Both the position numbers and the translations under genes were made by a program. Below the pieces are notes generated by a model. That model did no database searches, was not told the origin of the DNA, and saw only the letters and a list, made by a program, of their open reading frames with translations. DNA of 44,831 nt from SAR324 cluster bacterium (lineage in GTDB: Bacteria > SAR324 > NAC60-12), in contig JAQWOT010000345.1 of assembly GCA_029245725.1 (NCBI GenBank), forward strand, positions 1 through 44,831, given 5' to 3'. Shown here piece after piece: positions 9,684 to 27,983 of the stretch. Position 1 is the stretch's first letter; every line of letters begins with the position of its first letter.

Positions 9684-10979
9684 ATGAGTTCCCTTCCTAA
9701 GATTCTTGATCAAACGTTACGGGCAGCTCTTCAACGCTCTCAACCCAAAATTTGCCTACCAGAGTACTTAAAAGAAATTCAAGAAACAGAAAAATTGCCA
9801 GAGCGGATCATAGTTTTGGGAGCCGGAAAGGCATCAGCCGAGATGGCCAATTCGTTAGAAGATCATTGGCAGGGGAAAGATTGGGGAGCAAAATTGTGTG
9901 GTCTGGTGCTGACACGCTATGGCTATGGAGTACCCTGTAAATCCATTGAAATTGTCGAAGCAGATCATCCAGTACCTGACGAAATTGGCCTAATCACGGC
10001 TCAAAGAATTCTGAATCTAGCTGAATCTGCTACTGATCAAGATTTGGTAATCTGTCTGATTTCTGGTGGTGGTTCTGCTTTGTTGGCTCTACCTGGTAAG
10101 GGTCTTACCCTTCAAGACAAGCAAGCACTCAACAGATCTCTTCTCAATTCTGGGGCTACGATTGGAGAAATGAATTGCGTACGCAAACATCTTTCTGCAA
10201 TCAAAGGTGGGCGTCTCGCTCAAGCAGTTCAACCAGCAAGACTCTGGACTCTAGCAATCTCAGATGTTCCCGGAGACGATCTCTCTGTAATTGCTTCTGG
10301 CCCGACTGTTCCAGACCCTACTACTTTTTCAGATGCGCTAGAGATTTTAAGAAGGTATCAAATACAACCGACCCCAGCGATTCAAGCACTTTTAGAAGCA
10401 GCTGAGGAAGAAACTCCAAAACCTGGGGAAGACATTTTTTCAAGAAATCAAGTAAGGTTGGTTGCCACCCCGCAATTGATGCTCGAAGCTGCTGCAAAAG
10501 AAGCTGAGCAGCTTGGGATTACACCAATCATCCTAAGCGATCGTATTGAGGGTGAAGCCAGGGAGGTAGCCAAGGTTCATGCAGCGATTGCCAAGCAGAT
10601 CAAGCATCGACATCAACCAATCAACTCCCCAGCATTGATTTTGTCTGGGGGTGAAACCACTGTGACGGTTCGCGGTAAAGGTAAGGGAGGTAGGAATACG
10701 GAGTTTATCTTGTCTTTGCTTGAAGCCTTGCAGGGCGAAGAGAGAATTTCAGCAATTTCTGTCGACACTGACGGTATTGATGGCACAGAGGACAACGCTG
10801 GTGCTTGGATAGATCAGAACAGCTTTCTAAAAGCAAAACAGTTGAACCTCAAACCAAATGATTTCCTCGCTAATAATGATACCTACAGTTTCTTTCAGCA
10901 ATTGGAGCAACTTGTATTGACTGGTCCAACCATGACAAATGTGAATGACTTTCGGGCTATCTTCGTTAGTCAGCCGTAA
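9684..10979 (+). CDS. gck: glycerate 2-kinase (MOFRL family)
   Basis: 431 residues, full length for GckA/TtuD-type glycerate kinases. N-terminal DUF4147 domain with LGAGKASAEMA, SGGGSALLALPG and GEMNCVRKHLSAIKGGRLA; C-terminal MOFRL domain with LSGGETTVTVRGKGKGGRNT, SVDTDGIDGTEDNAGAW and the closing TNVNDFRAIFV. Phosphorylates D-glycerate at O2 with ATP, giving 2-phosphoglycerate for lower glycolysis. Second gene after hydroxypyruvate isomerase, consistent with a glyoxylate/hydroxypyruvate-to-glycolysis route. Its last 14 bases overlap the end of the convergent uvrA gene, so neither has room for its own terminator before the other's coding end. Confidence 0.92.
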   Translation: MSSLPKILDQTLRAALQRSQPKICLPEYLKEIQETEKLPERIIVLGAGKASAEMANSLEDHWQGKDWGAKLCGLVLTRYGYGVPCKSIEIVEADHPVPDEIGLITAQRILNLAESATDQDLVICLISGGGSALLALPGKGLTLQDKQALNRSLLNSGATIGEMNCVRKHLSAIKGGRLAQAVQPARLWTLAISDVPGDDLSVIASGPTVPDPTTFSDALEILRRYQIQPTPAIQALLEAAEEETPKPGEDIFSRNQVRLVATPQLMLEAAAKEAEQLGITPIILSDRIEGEAREVAKVHAAIAKQIKHRHQPINSPALILSGGETTVTVRGKGKGGRNTEFILSLLEALQGEERISAISVDTDGIDGTEDNAGAWIDQNSFLKAKQLNLKPNDFLANNDTYSFFQQLEQLVLTGPTMTNVNDFRAIFVSQP

Positions 10980-13900
10980 GTCCTGAATTCCATGATGGTT
11001 GCTGCTGAGGAATCAAAATATTTTTTGATGAACTGGTTTTGGTGCGTTTCCCTTCAAACATCTGGTTTTTAAGAACAGGCCAAAGTGCTCTTCCAGTATG
11101 ACTCGCTTCACAAGCCATGACTTGTTCAGGGGTTCCAGTGACGACTACCTCTCCTCCGTGAATACCCCCTTCTGGTCCAAGATCAATAACCCAATCAGCT
11201 GATTTGATGACTTCCAAATTGTGCTCAATGATCACCATTGTTCCCCCATCATCCACAATTCTATGCAGTACTTCTAATAAACGCCTCACATCATCAATGT
11301 GCAGACCCGTGGTTGGTTCATCAAGAATATAAAGTGTTTCTCCTTTTGATCTGCGAGAGAGTTCAGCCGAGAGCTTCAGCCGCTGTGCTTCCCCTCCTGA
11401 CAGAGTATTCCCTGCCTGACCCAACTTCATATAGCCAAGGCCCACATCTCTCATGGTCTGCAGAATTCTTAAAATCTTGTGCTGAGCTGCAAACAGTTGA
11501 CAAGCCTGTTCAATTTCAAGGTTGAGTACATCTGCGATTGTGTGTCCCTTGTACTCTACACTCAAAGTTTCTCGATTGTATCTCTTGCCCTGACATTGAT
11601 CACAAGTTACCCAAACATCGGAGAGAAAGTGCATTTCAATCAGATGATATCCCAGACCATCGCAGGCCGCACATCTTCCTTCGACAGAATTAAAAGAAAA
11701 ACGCCTAGGAGCAAATCCTCTTTGCCTTGCTGCAGGAAGTTTTGAAAAAAGATCCCGGATTGGTGACAGTGCGCCTGTATACGTTGAGGGATTACTTCTG
11801 GGTGTACGCCCTATCGGCTCTTGATCAATGATTCTGAGATATTTTAATTGCTCTAGTCCCTTGATCGTCTTGTGTTCTCCGATTTCACCAACATACCCAG
11901 AAAGCTTCTTTGCGACAGCTTTCTGCAGGACATCAATGATCAGAGAAGATTTGCCTGAACCACTCACGCCAGTCACAACAGTCAGACAACCCTTTGGGAT
12001 GTCAACGGAAATGTCCTTGAGGTTATTTACCTTGGCGTTTGAGATCGTGATCTGTCGTGCTGGATTGGGAAGTCTCCTGTGTGGGATCAGAATTCTTTGT
12101 CGATGACTCAAGTATTGCCCTGTGAGGGATTCTGAATCCAAGGCTAGGTCTCCTGGTGTTCCAGATGCGATGATTTTTCCACCATAGTGTCCAGCCCCTG
12201 GACCAATATCAATCAGATGATCCGCACGATTGATAACATCAAGATCATGTTCAACTAGCAGGACCGTGTTTCCAAGGTCACGTAGCTGTAGCAAAGTTTT
12301 CAATAATCGCTCGGTATCTCTCGGGTGTAGGCCAATGGTAGGTTCATCCAAGACATACAGCACCCCGGTCAACCCTGAGCCGATTTGAGATGCCAGACGA
12401 ATGCGTTGAGCCTCGCCACCTGAGAGCGTGTTGGATCGCTGATCTAATGTGAGGTATCCAAGACCTACATTGTGAAGGAATTTCAAACGACTGAGGATTT
12501 CATGAAGCGCTTGTTCAGCGATCGCCTGTTCGGTTGCGCTGAGTTCCCAAGTACTCACTTCTCGCAGGGCCTCGTCTACTCGCAATCTGCACAACTGGAG
12601 GATATTCCTCTGTCGAATGAGAACAGATCGATACTCGGGCTTTAACCTTTCACCATCACATGTTTTACAAGCACGAAAAACTAGTGAATCCAAATCTGTG
12701 TCTTCATCAAAATCCAAATTTCCAGTCAGTTCAATTTCACCAAGTCCATCACAATCTGGACATGCTCCAACGTGAGAATTGAAGGAAAACATTCTTGGGT
12801 TGAGTTCTTGAGTCAAGTAGTAGTCGCTTTGAACATTGCCCGGGACTTCAGAAAACCAGATCATCTTTTGGTCGTCCGGACGACGAGCGCAGAACAAGCC
12901 AATTCCCTGTTCGTAAGCGATGCTAGCGCTTTCAGCTAATCTTTGCTGTTCATCGACACTCACTCTGATCCTATCCACAACCAACCAAACCGCTACGGAC
13001 TTGGTAAGTTTAAGTTTTTTTGATTCGGACTCCCAATCATCAAACAAAATTAATTTATCCCCCACGTAAACTCTCAGGAATCCAGATTGTTGAAGCGCTG
13101 CCTGATGTTCTGGAAATTCCTTTGGATGTTTTAGTAAGGTGGGATGCTTGGAATCAGACCTAAACAATGGAGCCAGAATTTCAAGCCGATCTCCATCATA
13201 ATGATCTATAAGGAATCTGGCAGCCCGAGTTGCCGTGAAGCTTTTCAGAGGCAACCCTGTCTTTGGGCAATGAGCAACTCCAATTCTTGCGTATAAAAGA
13301 CGGAGATAGTCAAAAATCTCCGTGGTGGTTGCAACAATGGAGCGGGGATTACGACTGGAAGCTTTCTGATTAATCGCAATCGCTGGAGCAAGTCCATCAA
13401 TGCTATCAACAGGGGCCTTGTCCATTCTGCCGAGAAACCTTCTTGCATAAGTGGAGAGGGATTCAACATATCGAGCCTGCCCCTCCGCGAAGATGGTATC
13501 AAAAGCAAGGGAAGTCTTACCCGATCCGCTGACCCCTGTAATGACCGTAAACTGATGCTTTGGGATTTCAACATCCACATGGCGCAGGTTGTTTTTGCTG
13601 GCACCCCGAACAACTAGATCTCGCTCTTTTTTTTCGCTCCGAAAACCATTTATTGCATTGTGTTCGTTGACTTCCTCAGCTCTAGGAGATTCTTCACTTA
13701 ACTGCGTCTCCAATAGTGGTTTTAAGAATCCGCCTGTTAAAGTATTTAATTCAGCCAATTCCTCTGGGGTACCATTGCCCACCAATTTACCACCAAATTT
13801 GCCCCCACCTGGTCCCAATTCAATGACTTGATCGGCAAAGCGCAAAACATCGAGATTGTGTTCAATGACCAGCACACTATTACCCTGTTCAGCCAAGCGA

Positions 13901-16608
13901 TCCAAAGTCTGTAGCAGCGTGCGAATGTCTTGAAAGTGAAGTCCTGTCGTAGGTTCATCAAAGAGATACAGTGTCCGACCTGTGGATTTTTTTCGTAATT
14001 CTGAAGCTAACTTTACACGTTGAGCCTCACCCCCACTGAGGGTCGTAGATGGCTGCCCAAGCTTGACATACCCCAAGCCGACATCCAGCAGAGTCTGAAG
14101 GATGTGAAGGATTTTTGGTTGGTTTTCAAAAAGTTCAGCAGCTTCTGAGATTGTCAGTTCAAGAATTTCAAAGATCGTTTTGTGCTTGTAACGGATCTGT
14201 AGAGTTTCGGCATTGAATCGCTTGCCATCACAGGTTTCACAGGGAATTTGGACATCACTCAGAAACTGCATTTCAATGGTTTTCAACCCAGCCCCCTTGC
14301 AGTCTTCGCATCGCCCTCCTTTGACGTTGAAGGAAAATCTCCCCTTGTTGTATCCACGAATCCTTGACTCTGGAAGCATGGTGAAGAGATCACGAATCAG
14401 GTCAAAAACTTTGGTGTAGGTAGCCGGATTACTTCTTGGAGTTCGACCAATGGGGGACTGATTGATTTCAATCAGTCGATCCAGATGTTCCAGACCAGTA
14501 ACATGATCCCACTTCCCTTTGATTTCTTTTGATGTTTCCTCCTCGGTCGGTTCATTAGAGTCATCTTTTCCGTTTCCTTGCAGATGTTGCAATAAGGCTG
14601 GCCTCAGGATTCCATGCACTAGGCTCGATTTTCCGGAGCCACTGACTCCCGCCAAAACAACAAATAGTCCCAGGGGAATTTCGACATCCAAGCCCAACAG
14701 ATTATGCAAACGGGCATTTCTAATTGATAAACATCTTCCATCTGGAGTTCTTCGTTCAGTAGGAACTGGCATTTTTTCTTTTCCTACTAAGAACTGGGCT
14801 GTAACAGATTCAGGAGAGTCCAGAATCTCTTGAAAGCCACCTTGCGCAGTAATGTTTCCCCCATCTCGACCCGCTGTTGGTCCGATATCTATAATATGAT
14901 CAGCAGCACGGATGGTTTCTTCATCATGTTCCACCACAAAAACCGTGTTTCCACGGTCTCGTAGCATTTCCAAAGTTTTGATCAATCTCTGATTGTCACT
15001 TTGATGCAGACCGATACTTGGTTCATCGAGGACGTAGAGCACTCCCTGAAGACCAGAACCAAGTTGACTTGCTAAGCGAATACGCTGGCCTTCGCCTCCA
15101 GAAAGCGTAGCAGCTGAACGTTGAAGGCTGAGGTAGCCGAGTCCCACCTCACTTAAGAAAGAAAGGCGCGCACGAATTTCCCGAAAAAGATCCCGACCAA
15201 TCAATTCCTCTCTGTAGGTTAGTTCCAAACCTTCAAAAAAAGTGAGCGCTTCAGTGACTGAACAATCACCTAGGTCAACAATGTTTTGATCTCGGAAAGT
15301 TACAGCCCTTGCCATAGCATTCAGTCGGCTTCCACTACAATCCGGGCAAACAGCCCGCATTTGAAAGCGCTCCAAGGGTCCTTTTGCAAACCTGTAAACA
15401 AATTCCAAAATCGGAATCACACCAGCCCATTTACCTGCTTTGATTTGTTTCTTTAGATGGGAGGGGAATCGAAATACGTTGCCCACATAGAGAGAAACTT
15501 GTGCATTTCCTTTGAGAAACTGCTCTCTCTGCTGCTCAGGTAGTTCACCCCAAGATGAATTCAGATCGAGACCGAGCATCTTGGCCGCTGCATGTAGGTG
15601 GGATTTGTCAATTTTTGTGAAATGAATATTCCCGTTAGCAGTCACACATTGGACCGCACCATCTGTAAGAGTTTTTTCTGAATCACAGAGTCTGTCTTCA
15701 AGAAACTGTCGGGTCTCACCTAAGCCATTGCAGGTTGGACACGCGCCTTGGGGAGCATTGAAAGAGAAAAGTCGTGGTTCCTGTTCCGGTAGTGAAATCT
15801 GGCAGGTTGGACACGCACTCAATTGACTGAAGAGATGATCTTCTCCCTCGAAGTTCAGAATGACTAAGCCCTCACTCATTTTCAGCGCTTTTTCAATGCC
15901 TTCTGTTAGGCGACTTTTTTCATCTAAGCTTAAGACAAGTCGGTCGAGAACCAGCTCAATACTGTGTTTTTCATATCTTTTAAGTTCAATTTCCTCGTCA
16001 AGCCTACGAATCTCTCCATCAATCCGGGCCCTGACAAATCCATCTTGTACCCACTGTTGAATTTCCTTTCGATACTCTCCTTTTCGCTCTCGAACCATCG
16101 GAGCTAAAAGCGAGCAAGCCTCATCAAGAGCTACTGCATAAGCATGATCCGTAATCTGTTCTGGGGTTTGACTGGAAATTGGCGTTTTGCATTCAGGACA
16201 ATGTGGTTGCCCTAAACGAGCAAAAAGTAGTCGAAGATGGTCATAGATTTCAGTTACCGTTCCAACTGTCGAGCGTGGATTTCGGTTAACAGTTTTCTGA
16301 TCAACTGAGATGGTTGGACTCAAGCCTTCAATATGTTCAACCTTGGGTTTTTCCAACTGGCCCAGAAATTGTCGAGCATAAGCTGATAGTGATTCAACAA
16401 ATCTTCTTTGTCCTTCTTGAAAAATTGTGTCAAAAGCAAGTGATGATTTACCAGAACCACTCACACCCGTAAAAACGGTCAAAGTGTCTTTTGGAATATC
16501 AAGACTCAGATTCTTCAGATTGTGTTCACAAGCACCGGTTACCCGAATCATGTCATTTATTTTACTACTATGTTCAGAATTTAAATTGCTGTTTGGCTCT
16601 TCGGACAT
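10966..16608 (-). CDS. uvrA: tandem (duplicated) excinuclease subunit UvrA, four ABC domains
   Basis: 1880 residues, about twice normal UvrA (about 940). Two UvrA copies are fused head to tail: copy 1 about 1-975, a hydrophilic linker, copy 2 from about 995 (RDLVVRGASKNNLRHVD). Each copy has two ATPase modules: Walker A GVSGSGKS or GVSGSGKT near residues 47, 655, 1025 and 1546, signatures LSGGEGQRIRLASQ and LSGGEAQR, and Walker B LDEPSIGLH, FDEPTTGLH, LDEPTIGLH and LDEPTTGLH. Copy 1 keeps the zinc module CPTC...CPTC and UvrB-binding region; both copies keep the C-terminal zinc finger (CEDC/CETC, CAAC/CDQC). Copy 2 lacks the first CxxC of zinc module 1 and about 100 residues between CPDC and CKTC. 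UvrA recognises damaged DNA and loads UvrB. UvrA works as a dimer, so the fusion may be an intramolecular dimer; fused UvrA is known in Chlamydiae. Confidence 0.95.
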   Translation of the reverse strand: MSEEPNSNLNSEHSSKINDMIRVTGACEHNLKNLSLDIPKDTLTVFTGVSGSGKSSLAFDTIFQEGQRRFVESLSAYARQFLGQLEKPKVEHIEGLSPTISVDQKTVNRNPRSTVGTVTEIYDHLRLLFARLGQPHCPECKTPISSQTPEQITDHAYAVALDEACSLLAPMVRERKGEYRKEIQQWVQDGFVRARIDGEIRRLDEEIELKRYEKHSIELVLDRLVLSLDEKSRLTEGIEKALKMSEGLVILNFEGEDHLFSQLSACPTCQISLPEQEPRLFSFNAPQGACPTCNGLGETRQFLEDRLCDSEKTLTDGAVQCVTANGNIHFTKIDKSHLHAAAKMLGLDLNSSWGELPEQQREQFLKGNAQVSLYVGNVFRFPSHLKKQIKAGKWAGVIPILEFVYRFAKGPLERFQMRAVCPDCSGSRLNAMARAVTFRDQNIVDLGDCSVTEALTFFEGLELTYREELIGRDLFREIRARLSFLSEVGLGYLSLQRSAATLSGGEGQRIRLASQLGSGLQGVLYVLDEPSIGLHQSDNQRLIKTLEMLRDRGNTVFVVEHDEETIRAADHIIDIGPTAGRDGGNITAQGGFQEILDSPESVTAQFLVGKEKMPVPTERRTPDGRCLSIRNARLHNLLGLDVEIPLGLFVVLAGVSGSGKSSLVHGILRPALLQHLQGNGKDDSNEPTEEETSKEIKGKWDHVTGLEHLDRLIEINQSPIGRTPRSNPATYTKVFDLIRDLFTMLPESRIRGYNKGRFSFNVKGGRCEDCKGAGLKTIEMQFLSDVQIPCETCDGKRFNAETLQIRYKHKTIFEILELTISEAAELFENQPKILHILQTLLDVGLGYVKLGQPSTTLSGGEAQRVKLASELRKKSTGRTLYLFDEPTTGLHFQDIRTLLQTLDRLAEQGNSVLVIEHNLDVLRFADQVIELGPGGGKFGGKLVGNGTPEELAELNTLTGGFLKPLLETQLSEESPRAEEVNEHNAINGFRSEKKERDLVVRGASKNNLRHVDVEIPKHQFTVITGVSGSGKTSLAFDTIFAEGQARYVESLSTYARRFLGRMDKAPVDSIDGLAPAIAINQKASSRNPRSIVATTTEIFDYLRLLYARIGVAHCPKTGLPLKSFTATRAARFLIDHYDGDRLEILAPLFRSDSKHPTLLKHPKEFPEHQAALQQSGFLRVYVGDKLILFDDWESESKKLKLTKSVAVWLVVDRIRVSVDEQQRLAESASIAYEQGIGLFCARRPDDQKMIWFSEVPGNVQSDYYLTQELNPRMFSFNSHVGACPDCDGLGEIELTGNLDFDEDTDLDSLVFRACKTCDGERLKPEYRSVLIRQRNILQLCRLRVDEALREVSTWELSATEQAIAEQALHEILSRLKFLHNVGLGYLTLDQRSNTLSGGEAQRIRLASQIGSGLTGVLYVLDEPTIGLHPRDTERLLKTLLQLRDLGNTVLLVEHDLDVINRADHLIDIGPGAGHYGGKIIASGTPGDLALDSESLTGQYLSHRQRILIPHRRLPNPARQITISNAKVNNLKDISVDIPKGCLTVVTGVSGSGKSSLIIDVLQKAVAKKLSGYVGEIGEHKTIKGLEQLKYLRIIDQEPIGRTPRSNPSTYTGALSPIRDLFSKLPAARQRGFAPRRFSFNSVEGRCAACDGLGYHLIEMHFLSDVWVTCDQCQGKRYNRETLSVEYKGHTIADVLNLEIEQACQLFAAQHKILRILQTMRDVGLGYMKLGQAGNTLSGGEAQRLKLSAELSRRSKGETLYILDEPTTGLHIDDVRRLLEVLHRIVDDGGTMVIIEHNLEVIKSADWVIDLGPEGGIHGGEVVVTGTPEQVMACEASHTGRALWPVLKNQMFEGKRTKTSSSKNILIPQQQPSWNSGLTAD

Positions 16609-16739
16609 CAGGTGCTTTTTGGTGGGTATTGAAGGGAAAATAAAATTTCATTCCCAACAGTTTCAAATCTTTAGCTTACCTCTGCAAGTATTTCCTCAAT
16701 TGGAATTTTGAAATAGCCTTCTACATGGGGAAAATACTG

Positions 16740-16765
16740 AATTGTTAGAGTTTTGTTAGACAATT
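16740..16765. promoter_or_regulatory. inverted repeat upstream of uvrA
   Basis: AATTGT / ACAATT arms separated by 14 nt. The spacer region also contains two direct GTTAGA hexamers 11 bp apart, about one helical turn. It is 132 bp upstream of the uvrA start in the gap to the decayed lipoprotein gene. A damage-response operator is possible since uvrA is often SOS-controlled, but no recognised LexA consensus fits. Confidence 0.25.
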
Positions 16766-16851
16766 GAAATGTGATCTAGGCTACTGTATTTCAAGAGTAT
16801 CAACTTTTTTTGAAAAAATTGATGATTCGATAATCACTTTGGAGCACCCCA

Positions 16852-17202
16852 ATGATGAAAAAACTTCTCTACGGCAGCGCTGTGTTCAGCATAGTAATGT
16901 CCACAGTTGGTTGTACACAATAGGCCGCTCAACCTAGGCAGACGTCATTAGATGATTTTTGCAAACAGTTTCCTTTGTCACCAAGTTTTCCAGATGGAAA
17001 AAATGCAATCGCTAAGCAGGATACCTTTTGCGCAGAATTTCCATTATGAGTGACCAGTCCAGAAGGAAGAGCATCCATTCAGGAACAAAACGCATTCTGC
17101 TTACAGTTCCCAATGTCCGAAAGTTGCCCAGAGGGAAAATAAGTGATTGAGAAAAAGACAAAATGGTGTGCTGATTTTCCAACCTCCGCTGTTTGCAGTT
17201 GA
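16852..17202 (+). pseudogene. decayed lipoprotein gene with four Cys-rich 23-residue repeats
   Basis: A single reading frame from ATG 16852 (GGAG 7 nt upstream) to TGA 17200 is interrupted by three in-frame stops: TAG 16921, TGA 17047 and TAA 17140. No frameshift is present. The first 23 codons give MMKKLLYGSAVFSIVMSTVG followed by Cys-Thr-Gln, a lipoprotein-like signal whose lipobox is imperfect. After the first stop come four repeat units, starting near 16951, 17020, 17089 and 17158, the last truncated; the first three are exactly 23 codons. Consensus: [DN]xFCxxFPxSxxCPxGKxxIxxK. The TGA sits where repeat 1 has Ser (TCA), one base away. The repeat periodicity across the stops shows a once-intact small cysteine-repeat envelope protein. 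No named family recognised. Confidence 0.7.
16951..17199 (+). repeat. four tandem 69-bp coding repeats (last partial)
   Basis: Units at 16951-17019, 17020-17088, 17089-17157 and 17158-17199. They are diverged in DNA but aligned in protein: FCKQFPLS, FCAEFPL, FCLQFPMS and WCADFPTS each open the unit. Spacing is exactly 69 bp in the first three. Confidence 0.75.
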
Positions 17203-17448
17203 GTACCAACCCGTAAATTTTTGCCTAAGTCAATCAAATTGAATTAGGCAAACTTCTCCTAAATTAATTCCCTGAATTCTAGTTTTCTTGGTACCAGTTC
17301 GCCTTAAGTAATCAAATCTCTCAGTCCTTTCTAGTTTTAAAGAAAACCTCAGAAACTATTTTCTATTCTCCTTGAATATTTTGTCTTTTACTTTAAAAAT
17401 TAGGTTTTAAATCTAGCTTTTTTCTATTTTATTAAAGGATATGTGAAC

Positions 17449-21112: not shown

Positions 21113-21873
21113 TTTGCGGTAAATCCTCCATCTACCATTAGAATTTGGCCAGTTACGTATCGAGAGGCTTCCGAACAAAAGAATAACAGTGGGCCATCTA
21201 AATCTTCCAAGTTGCCGTTTCGTCCAATGCACGTCTGCTTTGCGTTTCTTGATGATCTTTCTGAATCTTCAAAAACCACCTTGGTCAGTTCAGTAAGAAA
21301 AAAACCGGGGCCGATTGCATTGACATTGATTCCATCTCTGGACCAGGCTTCTGCCATTGCACGCGTCAATTGCCCAACCCCCCCCTTTGAAGTACCGTAG
21401 GCAATCCCTGCTGGGAAGGCTCTGGTGGTCTGTAGGGAAGCAAAATTAACGATTCTACCCCAACCTTTCTGCTTCATAGATTCAACAAACAATTCACTCA
21501 GGAAAAAAGGCAGAGAGAGGTTTAACCAAAGGGTTAACTCCCATTGATCTGAAGTGACTTGGTCTGCAGTCTGACGCGGATTTATTCCGGCTGCATGGAC
21601 CAAAATGTCTGGACTTCCATAAGATTTGGTAATTTCCTCAGCAAGTGCGGGTAATTTCGTTCTATCTGATAAATCATGAACGATATATCCAGTTTTTGGT
21701 CCAGCTAAACTTTGCCAATCTCGTAACTCTGCTTCTCTTCGAGCCACTCCAATTACAGTTGCTCCAGCTTGTGCTAACACTGTAGCTGCCCGCTTGCCTA
21801 AACCTGAACTGGCACCTGTCACACAAGCAACCTTACCCGACACATCGAAAAGCTGACTAGCAATCCCACCCAT
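21109..21873 (-). CDS. short-chain dehydrogenase/reductase, probable sulfonate-pathway dehydrogenase
   Basis: 254 residues, classical SDR. Cofactor motif TGASSGLG, VHAAGINPRQ (NNAG position), catalytic Ser in NFASLQTTRAFPAG, YGTSKGG for Tyr/Lys, and the C-terminal ASRYVTGQILMVDGGF. NAD(P)-dependent oxidoreductase of small alcohols; similar to gluconate 5-dehydrogenase and 3-oxoacyl reductase types. Begins 3 bp after the HpsN stop, with a GAGG ribosome site overlapping that stop, and its own end overlaps the next gene by 4 bp. It therefore belongs to the sulfonate operon and could be a DHPS 2-dehydrogenase, with its partner ADH. Confidence 0.88.
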   Translation of the reverse strand: MGGIASQLFDVSGKVACVTGASSGLGKRAATVLAQAGATVIGVARREAELRDWQSLAGPKTGYIVHDLSDRTKLPALAEEITKSYGSPDILVHAAGINPRQTADQVTSDQWELTLWLNLSLPFFLSELFVESMKQKGWGRIVNFASLQTTRAFPAGIAYGTSKGGVGQLTRAMAEAWSRDGINVNAIGPGFFLTELTKVVFEDSERSSRNAKQTCIGRNGNLEDLDGPLLFFCSEASRYVTGQILMVDGGFTAK

Positions 21874-21876
21874 ACC

Positions 21877-23184
21877 TCAGTTTCCAGCTGTCAGATCAAA
21901 TTGTTCTGTTGGAAAATACTTGGCCAAACGAATGTCTGCTGTTCTGGCATGAGCTTCCATGCCTTCAAGACGAGAGATTCTAGCTGTAGCCTCGGCGATG
22001 TCCTTCATTCCATCTCTGGTTGACTTTTGCCAAGTCACAATTTTCATGTACTTGTGCACAGAAAGCCCCCCAGTGTAAGTCGCGGCACCTGAGGTTGGCA
22101 ACACATGGTTTGGGCCAGACGCTTTATCTCCGAAGGCCACTGTTGTCTCTTCACCTAGAAAGAGAGATCCATAGCACTTGAGACGATCCAGCCACCAATC
22201 TAAATCATTGGCCTGGACGGTGAGGTGCTCAGGAGCATATTCGTCTGAGGTTACTGCCATCTCTTCCCGGTCTTCGCAGAGAATGACTTCAGCATAATCT
22301 CGCCAGGCAGCCTCTGCATTCACACGATTAACCTTGGGTAGGGAATCAATCAGTTTTGGAACAATTTGGATGACCTGTTTAGCAAGATCACGTGAATTGG
22401 TCACCAGCCAAACAGGTGAGTTATAACCATGCTCTGCTTGCCCAACAAGATCAGCTGCCACAATTTCAGCATCAGCAAACTCATCGGCTAGAATTAAGCT
22501 ATTGGTTGGGCCGGCAATCATATCAATACCGACTCTTCCAAAAAGAATTCGCTTCGCTTCAGCAACAAACTGATTTCCAGGCCCTACCAGAATATTAGCC
22601 TTTGGCAAACCGAATAAACCAAAAGTCATTGCCGCCACACCTTGTACCCCACCCATCGCAAGAATAGTATCCGCCCCACATTGGTCTGCCGCAAAAATAA
22701 TTGCTGGAGCAATCCCTTCACCTGGCCGAGGTGGGGAGCAGGCAATGATGTTCTGGCACCCAGCAACCTTTGCGGTGGTGACAGTCATGATCGCACTAGC
22801 AATATGACTGTATCGCCCACCTGGAATGTAGCAACCAGCGGTGGTGACAGGAATACTCTTTTGCCCTGCAATCAAGCCAGGCACCACCTCCAGTTCAACA
22901 TCCTGCATGGTTGATAGCTGAGCTTCCGCGAATCGTTTCACATTATCGTGTGCGAAAATAATGTCTTTCTTCACCTTCTCAGGAACAAGGGTAGCAGCCT
23001 TATTTATTTCTTCCTGATCAAGCAGAATATGCCCATCGTACTTGTCAAACTTAGCAGCAAATTCGAGGGCTTTTTGGTCTCCACCTTCTTCAATTTCACT
23101 GAGAATATTTTGGACAGTTTGGTGGACATTTGAGGCATCTGTTTGAGCAGTGAAGCTAGCTTTCTTCAAATAGATTTTCGACAT
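21877..23184 (-). CDS. hpsN: HpsN-like sulfopropanediol 3-dehydrogenase (histidinol dehydrogenase family)
   Basis: 435 residues, histidinol-dehydrogenase fold. Key stretches: TTAGCYIPGGRYSHIASAI, LVGPGNQFVAEAKRILFG, GIDMIAGPTNSLILAD, YAPEHLTVQANDLDWWL and KASGPNHVLPTSGAATYTGG. No histidine-biosynthesis genes are nearby; instead it sits between TRAP permease and SuyAB genes, which points to HpsN. HpsN oxidises (R)-2,3-dihydroxypropane-1-sulfonate twice with NAD to (R)-sulfolactate, the substrate of SuyAB. Distinguishing HpsN from HisD by sequence alone needs alignment of substrate-binding residues; operon context carries much of the call. Cytosolic, zinc-dependent family. Confidence 0.83.
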   Translation of the reverse strand: MSKIYLKKASFTAQTDASNVHQTVQNILSEIEEGGDQKALEFAAKFDKYDGHILLDQEEINKAATLVPEKVKKDIIFAHDNVKRFAEAQLSTMQDVELEVVPGLIAGQKSIPVTTAGCYIPGGRYSHIASAIMTVTTAKVAGCQNIIACSPPRPGEGIAPAIIFAADQCGADTILAMGGVQGVAAMTFGLFGLPKANILVGPGNQFVAEAKRILFGRVGIDMIAGPTNSLILADEFADAEIVAADLVGQAEHGYNSPVWLVTNSRDLAKQVIQIVPKLIDSLPKVNRVNAEAAWRDYAEVILCEDREEMAVTSDEYAPEHLTVQANDLDWWLDRLKCYGSLFLGEETTVAFGDKASGPNHVLPTSGAATYTGGLSVHKYMKIVTWQKSTRDGMKDIAEATARISRLEGMEAHARTADIRLAKYFPTEQFDLTAGN

Positions 23185-23193
23185 CTCTCAAGT

Positions 23194-24525
23194 TTACTTA
23201 TAGATTTCAGGGAGCATCGTTGTGGAAATTTCTGGCACGAATGCGATCAGTAGAACTACGAGCATCATAAAGAAGACAAATGGAATAGCGCGCCAGGCAA
23301 TGTTGAGGATTGATTCTCCTGTCAATCCTGAAACGACGAAGAGATTGAGCCCTAGCGGTGGGGTGATAAATCCTACCCCAAGAGCTGTGATCATCATCAC
23401 GCAAAACTGAATCTCATTCATTCCAATATTGTCAGCAAGGGGCTTCAGAATAGGAGCCAAAATAACAATATTTGGGGTGGCCTCCATCACACACCCTGCA
23501 ATCACAAGCATTGCCACCATCATCAAAATGAGGATAGCGGGTGATTCTGTGAGTGATGTCACCGAGTAGACAAAACCTTGGGGTACTCCAAGAATCGCTA
23601 GAACCTGAGCCAAAGGTAGTGAAAATGCGATGATTGGTAAGATCACCCCATTGACCTTGGCTGAACTCAACAACATGTCTGGGAAGTCAGACAATTTCAG
23701 GGTGCCAAGAATAAAGCCGATGATAATGGTCACGACGACGGCAGTAGCACCCGCCTCCGTAGGCGTCAAGGAACCAGAGAAAATCCCATAGAAGATGATT
23801 CCGGGAACAATAAAAGCGTACCAACCAGATTTCAAAGCCTTGGTAAGATTCTGCCACCACTTAATAACTGTAATATTTTCACCTAATTCATAGGAATTCA
23901 AACGATTCATCACAATATTTGTGATTAAAATTGACAACAATATCGTTAGACCAGGAATAACAGCTGCCAAGAAGAGAATGGAAGCTGAAATCCCGAGAAC
24001 AAGTCCGATGATGATGTAAGAGATCGATGGTGGGATGAGTATACCTGTACAAGAACCAGCGGCCACAAGTGCACAAGCATAAGGCCTGGGATAACCACTT
24101 TCGACCAGACGGCTGATAGTCATCCGGCCCACAGCAGCAGCTCCCGCTGCATCTGAACCAGAGATGGAGGAAAACATCCCACAAACCAAAACCGTTGCAG
24201 AACCGAATCCCCCCTTTGTCCAACAAGTCAAAGCGTCTGCAATATCCAGAAACTTGCGACTCAAGCCTGTTCGAACAAGGACATCACCTGTTAAAATGAA
24301 CAAAGGGACTGCTGTTAGAGCGAAAGCGTCAATTCCATCAAAGAGGCTTTCTCCGATCAAAGATAGCGGCAGAGCTTCTGACATGATCAGCATCAGGATT
24401 GCTGCTGAACCGATGGAAACCCAAACAGGAACTGCCAAGGCACAGAGCACCACGAACATGATCACTGGTAGGTAAAAGTCCCAACCCAATGTTACAGCCT
24501 GATCCTGTAATTGACTCCATAGCAT
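23194..24525 (-). CDS. TRAP transporter large permease (DctM family)
   Basis: 443 residues with about 12 membrane spans, normal DctM length. Landmarks: AVPLFILTGDVLVRTGLS, FGSATVLVCGMFSSISGSDA, LVAAGSCTGILIPPSISYI, GSLTPTEAGATAVV, MEATPNIVILAPILKPLA and GVGFITPPLGLNLFVVSG, all conserved in DctM/SiaM-type permeases. It couples substrate uptake to a sodium or proton gradient with the small permease. ATG follows GAGGAA. It is 9 bp upstream of hpsN and 13 bp downstream of the DctQ gene, so it is the likely importer for DHPS or sulfolactate; hpsKLM TRAP genes are known in DHPS clusters. Confidence 0.92.
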   Translation of the reverse strand: MLWSQLQDQAVTLGWDFYLPVIMFVVLCALAVPVWVSIGSAAILMLIMSEALPLSLIGESLFDGIDAFALTAVPLFILTGDVLVRTGLSRKFLDIADALTCWTKGGFGSATVLVCGMFSSISGSDAAGAAAVGRMTISRLVESGYPRPYACALVAAGSCTGILIPPSISYIIIGLVLGISASILFLAAVIPGLTILLSILITNIVMNRLNSYELGENITVIKWWQNLTKALKSGWYAFIVPGIIFYGIFSGSLTPTEAGATAVVVTIIIGFILGTLKLSDFPDMLLSSAKVNGVILPIIAFSLPLAQVLAILGVPQGFVYSVTSLTESPAILILMMVAMLVIAGCVMEATPNIVILAPILKPLADNIGMNEIQFCVMMITALGVGFITPPLGLNLFVVSGLTGESILNIAWRAIPFVFFMMLVVLLIAFVPEISTTMLPEIYK

Positions 24526-24538
24526 GATGATTCCTCAG

Positions 24539-25054
24539 CTACTCAAACAACGCCGAGCCTTCAAAGACTTCACGGCCTTCTCTGAAAGCTTTAAAATCAT
24601 GAATCAGGGACTGGATCAAGCGAATGGTGATCAGACTAAAGCCAATTGGAATCGCACAAAGAAACCAGACCATAGAGATACGTAAACCATGGCTCACAGA
24701 GCCAAACTTTGCCGAGACTAGAACAGTTTCAAAAGACCAGTACAGGGCAATGCAAGCAACAGCGAGTGAGATCAAGTCTCCCAACATGTACAGCAAGGAT
24801 TTCCACTTTGGAGCCAAGTAGTGCATGATGACATCGATTCTGATATGAGCTCTGTCCCGAAATGCTGCTGCAGCTCCGATCCAAGCTAAATATATGAAAG
24901 AATACCTAACAATTTCTTCACCCCAAATCGATGAATAAGAAAAAACTTCGCGCCTCAAGACTTCGATTGCCATTGTTGAAACTAACATAATGTAAAACAC
25001 CAATAGCAACCACTTCTCAATATTTTTATTCAGGACTTTTAAAAAGTTCTGCAT
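24539..25054 (-). CDS. TRAP transporter small permease (DctQ family)
   Basis: 171 residues with four membrane spans: about 14-33, 48-64, 87-106 and 130-150. Shows VLRREVFSYSSIWGEEIVRYSFIYLAWIG split across spans 1-2 and AAAFRDRAHIRIDVIMHYL, the common DctQ layout (E...RY...W, then a conserved H.R.D). Forms the membrane complex with DctM and docks the periplasmic binding protein. Separated from the binding-protein gene by 183 bp of AT-rich sequence, but all on one strand. Confidence 0.9.
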   Translation of the reverse strand: MQNFLKVLNKNIEKWLLLVFYIMLVSTMAIEVLRREVFSYSSIWGEEIVRYSFIYLAWIGAAAAFRDRAHIRIDVIMHYLAPKWKSLLYMLGDLISLAVACIALYWSFETVLVSAKFGSVSHGLRISMVWFLCAIPIGFSLITIRLIQSLIHDFKAFREGREVFEGSALFE

Positions 25055-25237
25055 GCAGATTTCACTAAATCAAAAATTTTAATTTTTTTTAAATATTAGA
25101 CGGTACAAGTCTTTTAAGTTTACTGATCTAAAATGTTTAGTAAGACTCATTCTGGAAAAGATCAAACCTCCAAGAATTCAGAAAAGCATCGAATTTGAAG
25201 ATTTGATCCAATTCAGCTTCAAAACAAAGGGGCGGAA

Positions 25238-26386
25238 TCAAGCATCATGAACGTAGTAGCGACTCATGGTTCCTGCAGCCTCCTCTAATCTGTCAAAGGC
25301 CTCCATTGACCCAGCCAATTCAACCTTGAATTGGTCCCATTCAGATCGTTGATATCCACCAGCAGCTTTCCACTCAGCAAGTTGATCCTGTGTCAAAGAA
25401 TGAAATTCTACTCCAGATTTGACCAATTCAGCCATTGCATAGCTTCTTGCAGAAGGCACCTTTGCCAGGTTTTGTTGTGCGGTAACCTCACTCGCAAACT
25501 CAATTCCGTCCTGAACATCGGATGGAAGGGATTTAAACCATTCCAGATTACAAGAATACACTTGGCTGTCTGGAACTGCCTGAGTGAATGTTACATGGCT
25601 CAGGATATCCTTGAAGCCAAACACGAAGAGTGCTCCCACCGAAGGATCTAGAGCGTCAGCAACACCTTGTTTAATCGCTGATGGTGTTTCACCCCATGCC
25701 ACAGGGGTTGGATTGGCCCCTACCATTCGGTAATACTGCTGCAGCATTTTTGAACCGGGAACACGGAATTTCACTCCATCAAGATCTTTTGGAGTAATTA
25801 CCGGACCAGGACCACCCTTACGAATGGCAACAACTCTAGGATCAATGACAATGTAGAAAAGTGCCTTGAATCCACTGGCCTCTACCTTAGGATGAACCTC
25901 ATTCTTCCAAGCGTTCGAAGTCACCAAATTAGTGAAGCGCTGATTCGATCCACAAAAATATGGCATGTTGATTAAGTCAACAGCAGAGGCGAAGGGGGCA
26001 AAGTTTGAGAGGGAATGTTGGGCGGCCTGAATAGTGCCGCCTTGTACTTTTTGAGCAAGCGCACCTCCAGCTCCCAATTGCCCACCTGGAGCCAGCTTTA
26101 CGTAAATTTTGCCGTTGGTGGAGTTTTGAATATTTTCTTTGAGATCCAGCTGTAGAATTGGGTAGCTTCTAGATGCTCCTAAGACGTATGCGGTTGCTAC
26201 TGTCATTACATGAGCAGCTTCCTTTTCACGTTTGCGTTCTTCAGCTGCTGTTTGCGCCACAGCCTCACTAGAAGAGAGAGCACCTGCGGCTCCGGCCACC
26301 ATGGCTGCTGTAAAACTGCCCTTGCCTACCAGTTGCAGAAAATTCCGGCGACTGACTGACTGTAGTTCTTTTGCTTCATCACTCAT
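25238..26386 (-). CDS. TRAP transporter substrate-binding protein (DctP family), Tat-exported
   Basis: 382 residues from ATG 26386. The N-terminus SVSRRNFLQLVGKGSF followed by an Ala/Gly-rich stretch and AVAQ is a twin-arginine signal (SRRNFLQ), implying export after folding. The mature domain has the DctP hallmarks GGQLGAGGALAQKVQGGTIQ, KDLDGVKFRVPGSKMLQQYY, PTPVAWGETPSAIKQGVADA and, near the end, KAAGGYQRSEWDQF. It captures a solute, probably a C3 sulfonate given the operon, for the DctQM permease. Start choice: AAGGAGT lies 7 nt before 26386, and the alternative ATG at 26413 would overlap the upstream small gene. Confidence 0.92.
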   Translation of the reverse strand: MSDEAKELQSVSRRNFLQLVGKGSFTAAMVAGAAGALSSSEAVAQTAAEERKREKEAAHVMTVATAYVLGASRSYPILQLDLKENIQNSTNGKIYVKLAPGGQLGAGGALAQKVQGGTIQAAQHSLSNFAPFASAVDLINMPYFCGSNQRFTNLVTSNAWKNEVHPKVEASGFKALFYIVIDPRVVAIRKGGPGPVITPKDLDGVKFRVPGSKMLQQYYRMVGANPTPVAWGETPSAIKQGVADALDPSVGALFVFGFKDILSHVTFTQAVPDSQVYSCNLEWFKSLPSDVQDGIEFASEVTAQQNLAKVPSARSYAMAELVKSGVEFHSLTQDQLAEWKAAGGYQRSEWDQFKVELAGSMEAFDRLEEAAGTMSRYYVHDA

Positions 26387-26402
26387 GTTTGGACTCCTTT
26401 GC

Positions 26403-26600
26403 TTAAGCGCCATTTACGTTGGACTTGTTTCGTTCTATCCTCTCAACCTGCTCACGTTTCAATATGGTGATTGTGAAAATTATGGAGGCTACCAATAACA
26501 GCAACATTTCACCGACGTCACCCAAAAAAGGTTGTCCTCCCATAGTTCCAATCAAAACATTTGTAAAGAAAATAACGAGCAGAATGATCGTCAGAAACAT
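26403..26600 (-). CDS. small two-span membrane protein leading the TRAP operon
   Basis: 65 residues: span 1 about 3-20 (LTIILLVIFFTNVLIG), a short loop GGQPFLGDVGEM, span 2 about 33-46 (LLLLVASIIFTITIL), then a charged tail KREQVERIERNK. GAGAAGG precedes its ATG. It is the first gene after the predicted operon promoter and ends 16 bp before the binding-protein start, leaving just room for that gene's ribosome site. I believe similar short GDVGEM-containing proteins occur beside marine TRAP genes, but this is from memory and unnamed. Possible accessory subunit; no function assigned. Confidence 0.65.
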   Translation of the reverse strand: MFLTIILLVIFFTNVLIGTMGGQPFLGDVGEMLLLLVASIIFTITILKREQVERIERNKSNVNGA

Positions 26601-27841: not shown

Positions 27842-27983
27842 AAGAAATAGAATAATCCTAAAAGGCCAACAAAAAAACCAACTACTGATTTACTTTTCTA
27901 CTAAGAATGTTAGTTTTACTTTCAAAATCAACTGATCTATTTTGATAAACTTTTCTTTATAAACAATTACTTAATAGGTTTCT

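Follow-up and report, generated by a model that had tools for sequence, protein, structure and literature searches.

CP12 (PF02672) is a redox-switched regulator of the Calvin cycle that binds GAPDH and PRK and has a C-terminal cysteine-pair hairpin. This C-terminal pair has been described with CxxxPxxxxC spacing (PMC9406205), and the same spacing occurs in four copies in the intact relatives of the gene analysed here. Bacterial outer-membrane lipoproteins of the Sec/LspA pathway share with those intact copies a basic N-terminus, a hydrophobic stretch, a V-G-C lipobox and Thr at position +2, but the repeat region fits no described lipoprotein family. Finally, bacterial pseudogenes generated by nonsense substitution resemble the copy in our window (the whole stretch of 44,831 nucleotides analysed, from a SAR324 cluster bacterium) in their internal stops, neutral dN/dS and intact orthologues at the same locus; they differ from it in that three nonsense codons have accumulated here without any frameshift and in that the lesions of a sister species are separate.

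An intact orthologue at the same locus, disabling lesions and a dN/dS near 1 were all found for positions 16852-17202, which we consider very probably a pseudogene. Selection on the protein would have ceased around the time when the window species and its sister species (genome G004) parted, each lineage then gaining its own coding lesions, while in two more distant congeners (G001 and G005) purifying selection maintains the gene. With the gene intact in some congeners, hit once in another and hit three times in the window, all at one locus, gene loss can be seen midway, and the neutral drift of a decaying gene can be measured against its neighbours; the decay is otherwise ordinary.

The locus and its congeneric copies

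Conceptual translation of the 117-codon frame yields MMKKLLYGSAVFSIVMSTVGCTQ, AAQPRQTSLDDFCKQFPLSPSFPDGKNAIAKQDTFCAEFPL, VTSPEGRASIQEQNAFCLQFPMSESCPEGK and VIEKKTKWCADFPTSAVCS, each segment ending at a stop codon (Table 1). This agrees with an earlier note on this DNA, made from the window's letters, which had described one frame with start and ribosome site, interrupted once each by TAG, TGA and TAA, and homologues of this frame were found in three congeneric genomes, so that chance does not account for it. The core of the SD-like site, GGAGCACC, is the same in all four species in the alignment. The neighbours in the window are a divergent UvrA gene of 1880 codons and a downstream gene for a YeiH-type membrane protein (PF03601). 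The UvrA gene (10966-16608) was seen to consist of two tandem UvrA units in a single gene.

Table 1. Features at the lipoprotein locus (window coordinates).
Feature	Position	Strand	Basis or remark
Very probable pseudogene (repeat lipoprotein, 116 residues) with preserved frame and three stops inside	16852..17202	+	Translation, homologues, alignment, dN/dS
Intergenic region common to the gene and divergent uvrA	16609..16851	.	
SD-like site GGAGCACCCCA	16841..16851	+	Precedes ATGATG
Predicted lipoprotein signal peptide	16852..16914	+	Lipobox end ..S-T-V-G-C (Cys21)
Internal TAG, codon 24	16921..16923	+	Gln in three relatives; 23-residue peptide remains
Repeat 1	16957..17025	+	Cys46 to Phe, second Cys of the pair gone
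Repeat 2	17026..17094	+	TGA at 17047-17049 (Ser in relatives); Cys69 to Ser
Repeat 3	17095..17163	+	Holds TAA at 17140-17142, where relatives have Ala
Partial fourth repeat WCADFPTSAVCS and original stop codon	17164..17202	+	Terminal TGA at 17200; a Trp codon here is a stop in G004
Stem-loop right after the gene	17220..17252	+	-13.8 kcal/mol, z -5.3

The stem-loop that follows the gene is maintained in the intact relative G001 (z -3.6) and is weaker in G004 (z -1.6), whose gene copy is broken too. It is a possible transcript end, although no T run follows it. An Rfam search of the locus returned nothing exceeding chance.

Homologues were sought in 58 genomes and in all 52 genomes of the class and phylum in the collection, where the phylum is represented by one class only. 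The gene was found only in the window's genome and in the three congeneric genomes, whose homologues comprise the same 116 codons and show 78-81% protein identity. The four copies were aligned codon by codon with zero indels and no frameshift. The earlier note's reading of decay presupposed intact homologues, and the G001 and G005 copies are indeed open across all 116 codons (116 aa) with no internal stop. In the G004 copy a single TGA stands at codon 105, which encodes Trp in the other copies, and the lipobox Cys21 is replaced by Tyr. The window copy has its stops at codons 24, 66 and 97, and also two lesions that the earlier note had not listed, the replacement of the conserved Cys46 and Cys69 by Phe and Ser, with two of the four CxxxPxxxxC pairs each short of one cysteine. 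The window and G004 copies have no stop in common, and in the alignment the lesions are private to each copy; those in coding sequence arose separately in the two sister species.

G001 and G004 both have uvrA and the YeiH-type gene on either side of the gene, in the same order. The G005 contig runs out 276 bases beyond the gene, and its YeiH-type gene is found at the end of a different contig, which is compatible with the same arrangement. The uvrA of G002 is cut by a contig end, so that the locus beyond it is not covered, and G003, which is 68% complete, gave no match to the locus flanks. Farther downstream, about 4.8 kb of the window (21667-26427) is missing from the corresponding junction in G001, and the match of the G004 contig to the window stops near 27846.

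An intact paralogue elsewhere in the same genome, which the earlier note had suggested looking for, was not found: genome searches detected a single copy and no second one. Phages and viral contigs gave no match to the gene. When genome_contigs, with about 85,000 species, was scanned, only the two intact copies were recovered, in the records Deltaproteobacteria bacterium UBA6967 and PL36313bin_19, although the scan used short exact peptide patterns that could miss distant relatives. The Deltaproteobacteria labels, taken with the single class of the phylum, suggest the SAR324 lineage. A degenerate-motif search for the repeat, also proposed earlier, found real matches confined to the four genomes; the matches in G006 and G036, with one mismatch each, were single and without repeats, and were rejected as chance. 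Likewise, a match in G040 (E 0.004) proved on inspection to be a zinc-ribbon-like frame, and a Paroceanicella plasmid match (E 0.2) coincided with a long, G+C-rich frame under which no gene is annotated; both were attributed to chance. As judged from these searches, the full known range of the family would be four species of one genus.

Selection and divergence

dN/dS was estimated by the NG86 method, and changes were placed on lineages by single-site polarisation. The intact pair G001-G005 is under purifying selection, with a dS of 0.548, a dN of 0.072 and a dN/dS of 0.13 (0.09 in the mature part). Between the window and G004 the gene evolves neutrally (dS 0.089, dN 0.088, dN/dS 1.00), compared with a dN/dS of 0.15 for uvrA (dS 0.072) and 0.27 for yeiH (dS 0.087) in the same pair. 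As the dS of the gene matches that of yeiH and is near that of uvrA, the excess consists of replacement changes. In Fisher tests, the nonsynonymous to synonymous ratio of the gene between window and G004 (23:6) differed from that of the intact pair (19:28, p=0.001), from that of uvrA (47:91, p=9e-6) and from that of yeiH (p=0.013). The recent nonsense decay suggested in the earlier note is upheld by this rise of dN/dS from 0.13 to 1.00, by the intact orthologues at the locus and by the different lesions of the sister species.

Changes on the G001 and G005 branches were mostly silent (4 replacement and 7 silent; 8 and 18), whereas replacements dominated on the window branch (10, stops counted, against 2 silent) and on that of G004 (8 against 2). 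The internal branch leading to the window and G004 carried six of each, and because this ratio is intermediate, relaxation may have begun just ahead of the split, though the two copies have no common coding lesion.

These data bear on whether the stops might be recoded or read through so that a full-length protein is still made, which the earlier note had already thought the less likely option. The retained frame, start and SD-like site and the lack of indels are what such a reading would predict. However, TAG, TGA and TAA all break the one frame while the genes next to it read through uninterrupted with the ordinary code, and the stop positions correspond to three different residues in the relatives. 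As there are three different stops, replacement changes accumulate at the neutral rate and cysteine pairs are broken by the loss of two conserved cysteines, we regard readthrough as not credible.

Between the window and G004, 29 of 351 sites have changed in the gene, 26 of 240 in the downstream intergenic region and 9 of 243 in the upstream one. The latter is probably constrained by the divergent uvrA, which shares it, and this may be why the SD-like site seems preserved despite the lost product. In the window lineage, translation would stop at codon 24 and leave 23 residues, the signal peptide with Cys-Thr-Gln, so that no functional protein of this kind would be expected. That the window species has retained this truncated product as a tiny lipopeptide is very improbable. 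Single-site polarisation placed zero window-specific replacement changes in codons 1-23, in line with retention, but these codons offer too few sites for significance, the upstream stretch is under constraint from uvrA as well, and the G004 copy has no lipobox cysteine.

Mutation spectrum and possible consensus errors

All four genomes are assemblies, probably metagenomic (two are named MAGs), and the lesions were read from consensus sequences. Among the window-lineage changes in the gene, 7 of 17 are C>A/G>T, compared with 3 of 50 in uvrA, and 12 of 17 are transversions. The majority lie within about 110 bases (17041-17150), and the bins over the gene rank top for C>A/G>T across the 27.8 kb aligned with G004. 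In simulations, 14 random changes yielded at least three stops in just 2-3% of runs. The C>A/G>T excess may reflect a local mutation cluster or, in part, low-depth consensus error, and local errors of this kind may account for some of the window lesions.

The stronger version of this concern, that the window contig carries consensus or assembly errors and the gene is really intact, draws on the same enrichment, concentrated in the richest stretch of the aligned region, but appears improbable to us. The adjoining uvrA is open through 1880 codons with a dN/dS of 0.15, and the downstream intergenic region has diverged about as much as the gene, which argues that the gene is not unusually error-laden. 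Moreover, the G004 copy, whose mutation spectrum is ordinary, carries an independent stop and lacks the lipobox cysteine, and this evidence does not depend on the window assembly. The pseudogene verdict does not stand on the cluster alone, because the codon-24 TAG arose by a C>T change outside it and the sister copy is independently broken.

Repeats and the intact protein

A degenerate DNA pattern for FCxxFPxxxxCPxG matched three times with at most one mismatch and an exact spacing of 69 nt (at 16957, 17026 and 17095), compared with a mean of 0.03 matches in shuffled versions of the window. This supports the 23-residue periodicity reported in the earlier note, but its description of four repeats held only in part: there are three full 23-residue units, and the fourth, which closes the protein, is a partial one of 12 residues. 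In the intact G001 protein, 12 to 16 of the 23 residues are common to its three full units. No nucleotide tandem repeat was detected by TRF, and the repeats are thus old at the DNA level.

The signal peptides of the intact proteins, read by eye, end in ..VMSAVGC or ..VMSSVGC (for example ..VMSAVGC-TQQ), with the lipobox cysteine. The mature part comprises 96 residues (10.2 kDa), and the nine cysteines are the lipidation cysteine and the four CxxxPxxxxC pairs. An AlphaFold2 model of a single intact sequence showed helices at residues 28-39, 47-62, 70-85 and 93-108, with pLDDT of 81-89 across the repeats and a pTM of just 0.39. Because the loop within each cysteine pair links successive helices, disulfide-stapled helix turns would be the natural reading of this model. 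A Foldseek search with the model against the PDB found nothing similar.

From these features, the ancestral gene would have encoded a small lipoprotein of about 96 residues in its mature form, presumably exported by Sec and then lipidated at Cys21. Sorting to the outer membrane is probable, since there is no Asp at +2. The mature part would form a rod of short helices, with each CxxxPxxxxC pair acting as a disulfide staple.

The intact proteins had no significant match in Pfam, NCBIfam, PHROGs or the PDB. The only lipoprotein match in NCBIfam was to the PG1828 family (14.2 against a cut-off of 50), at the N-terminus only. The best Pfam match was CP12, at 15.3 and 14.6 bits for the intact proteins, below the cut-off of 22.7. 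Neither intact sequence contains the AWD_VEEL core, and the protein is therefore not filed as CP12; the spacing it has in common with CP12 may be convergent. Further differences from CP12 are the three and a half tandem copies and the lipoprotein signal peptide, which makes the intact proteins probably extracytoplasmic. It is conceivable, though we hold it unlikely, that the intact relatives are lineage-restricted envelope lipoproteins built of tandem CP12-like CxxxPxxxxC disulfide hairpins, serving as a redox-sensitive or disulfide-stapled extracytoplasmic rod. The intact copies represent a small undescribed repeat lipoprotein and a new, if small, family. The earlier note's proposal of a new envelope protein family is in this respect sustained by the intact relatives and the lack of database matches, but qualified by the narrow range of four species of one genus and by an envelope location deduced from the signal peptide only.

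A CP12 match above the cut-off, in G002, was set aside, as it proved to be the tail of an HNH-nuclease-like ORF and not the lipoprotein gene. This ORF (L051:1495-2001, contig C15) has the CP12-type tail YCSLNPSSPECLIYD and adjoins a ThyX-like ORF; although binned with a genome of the window's genus, its contig resembles cyanophage-type DNA and is perhaps wrongly binned. An open frame of 117 residues in G011 (contig C24, L055:701-1051), a genome from the same taxonomic family, likewise ends in a CP12-like tail, EFCIPLPDSTVCRVYD.
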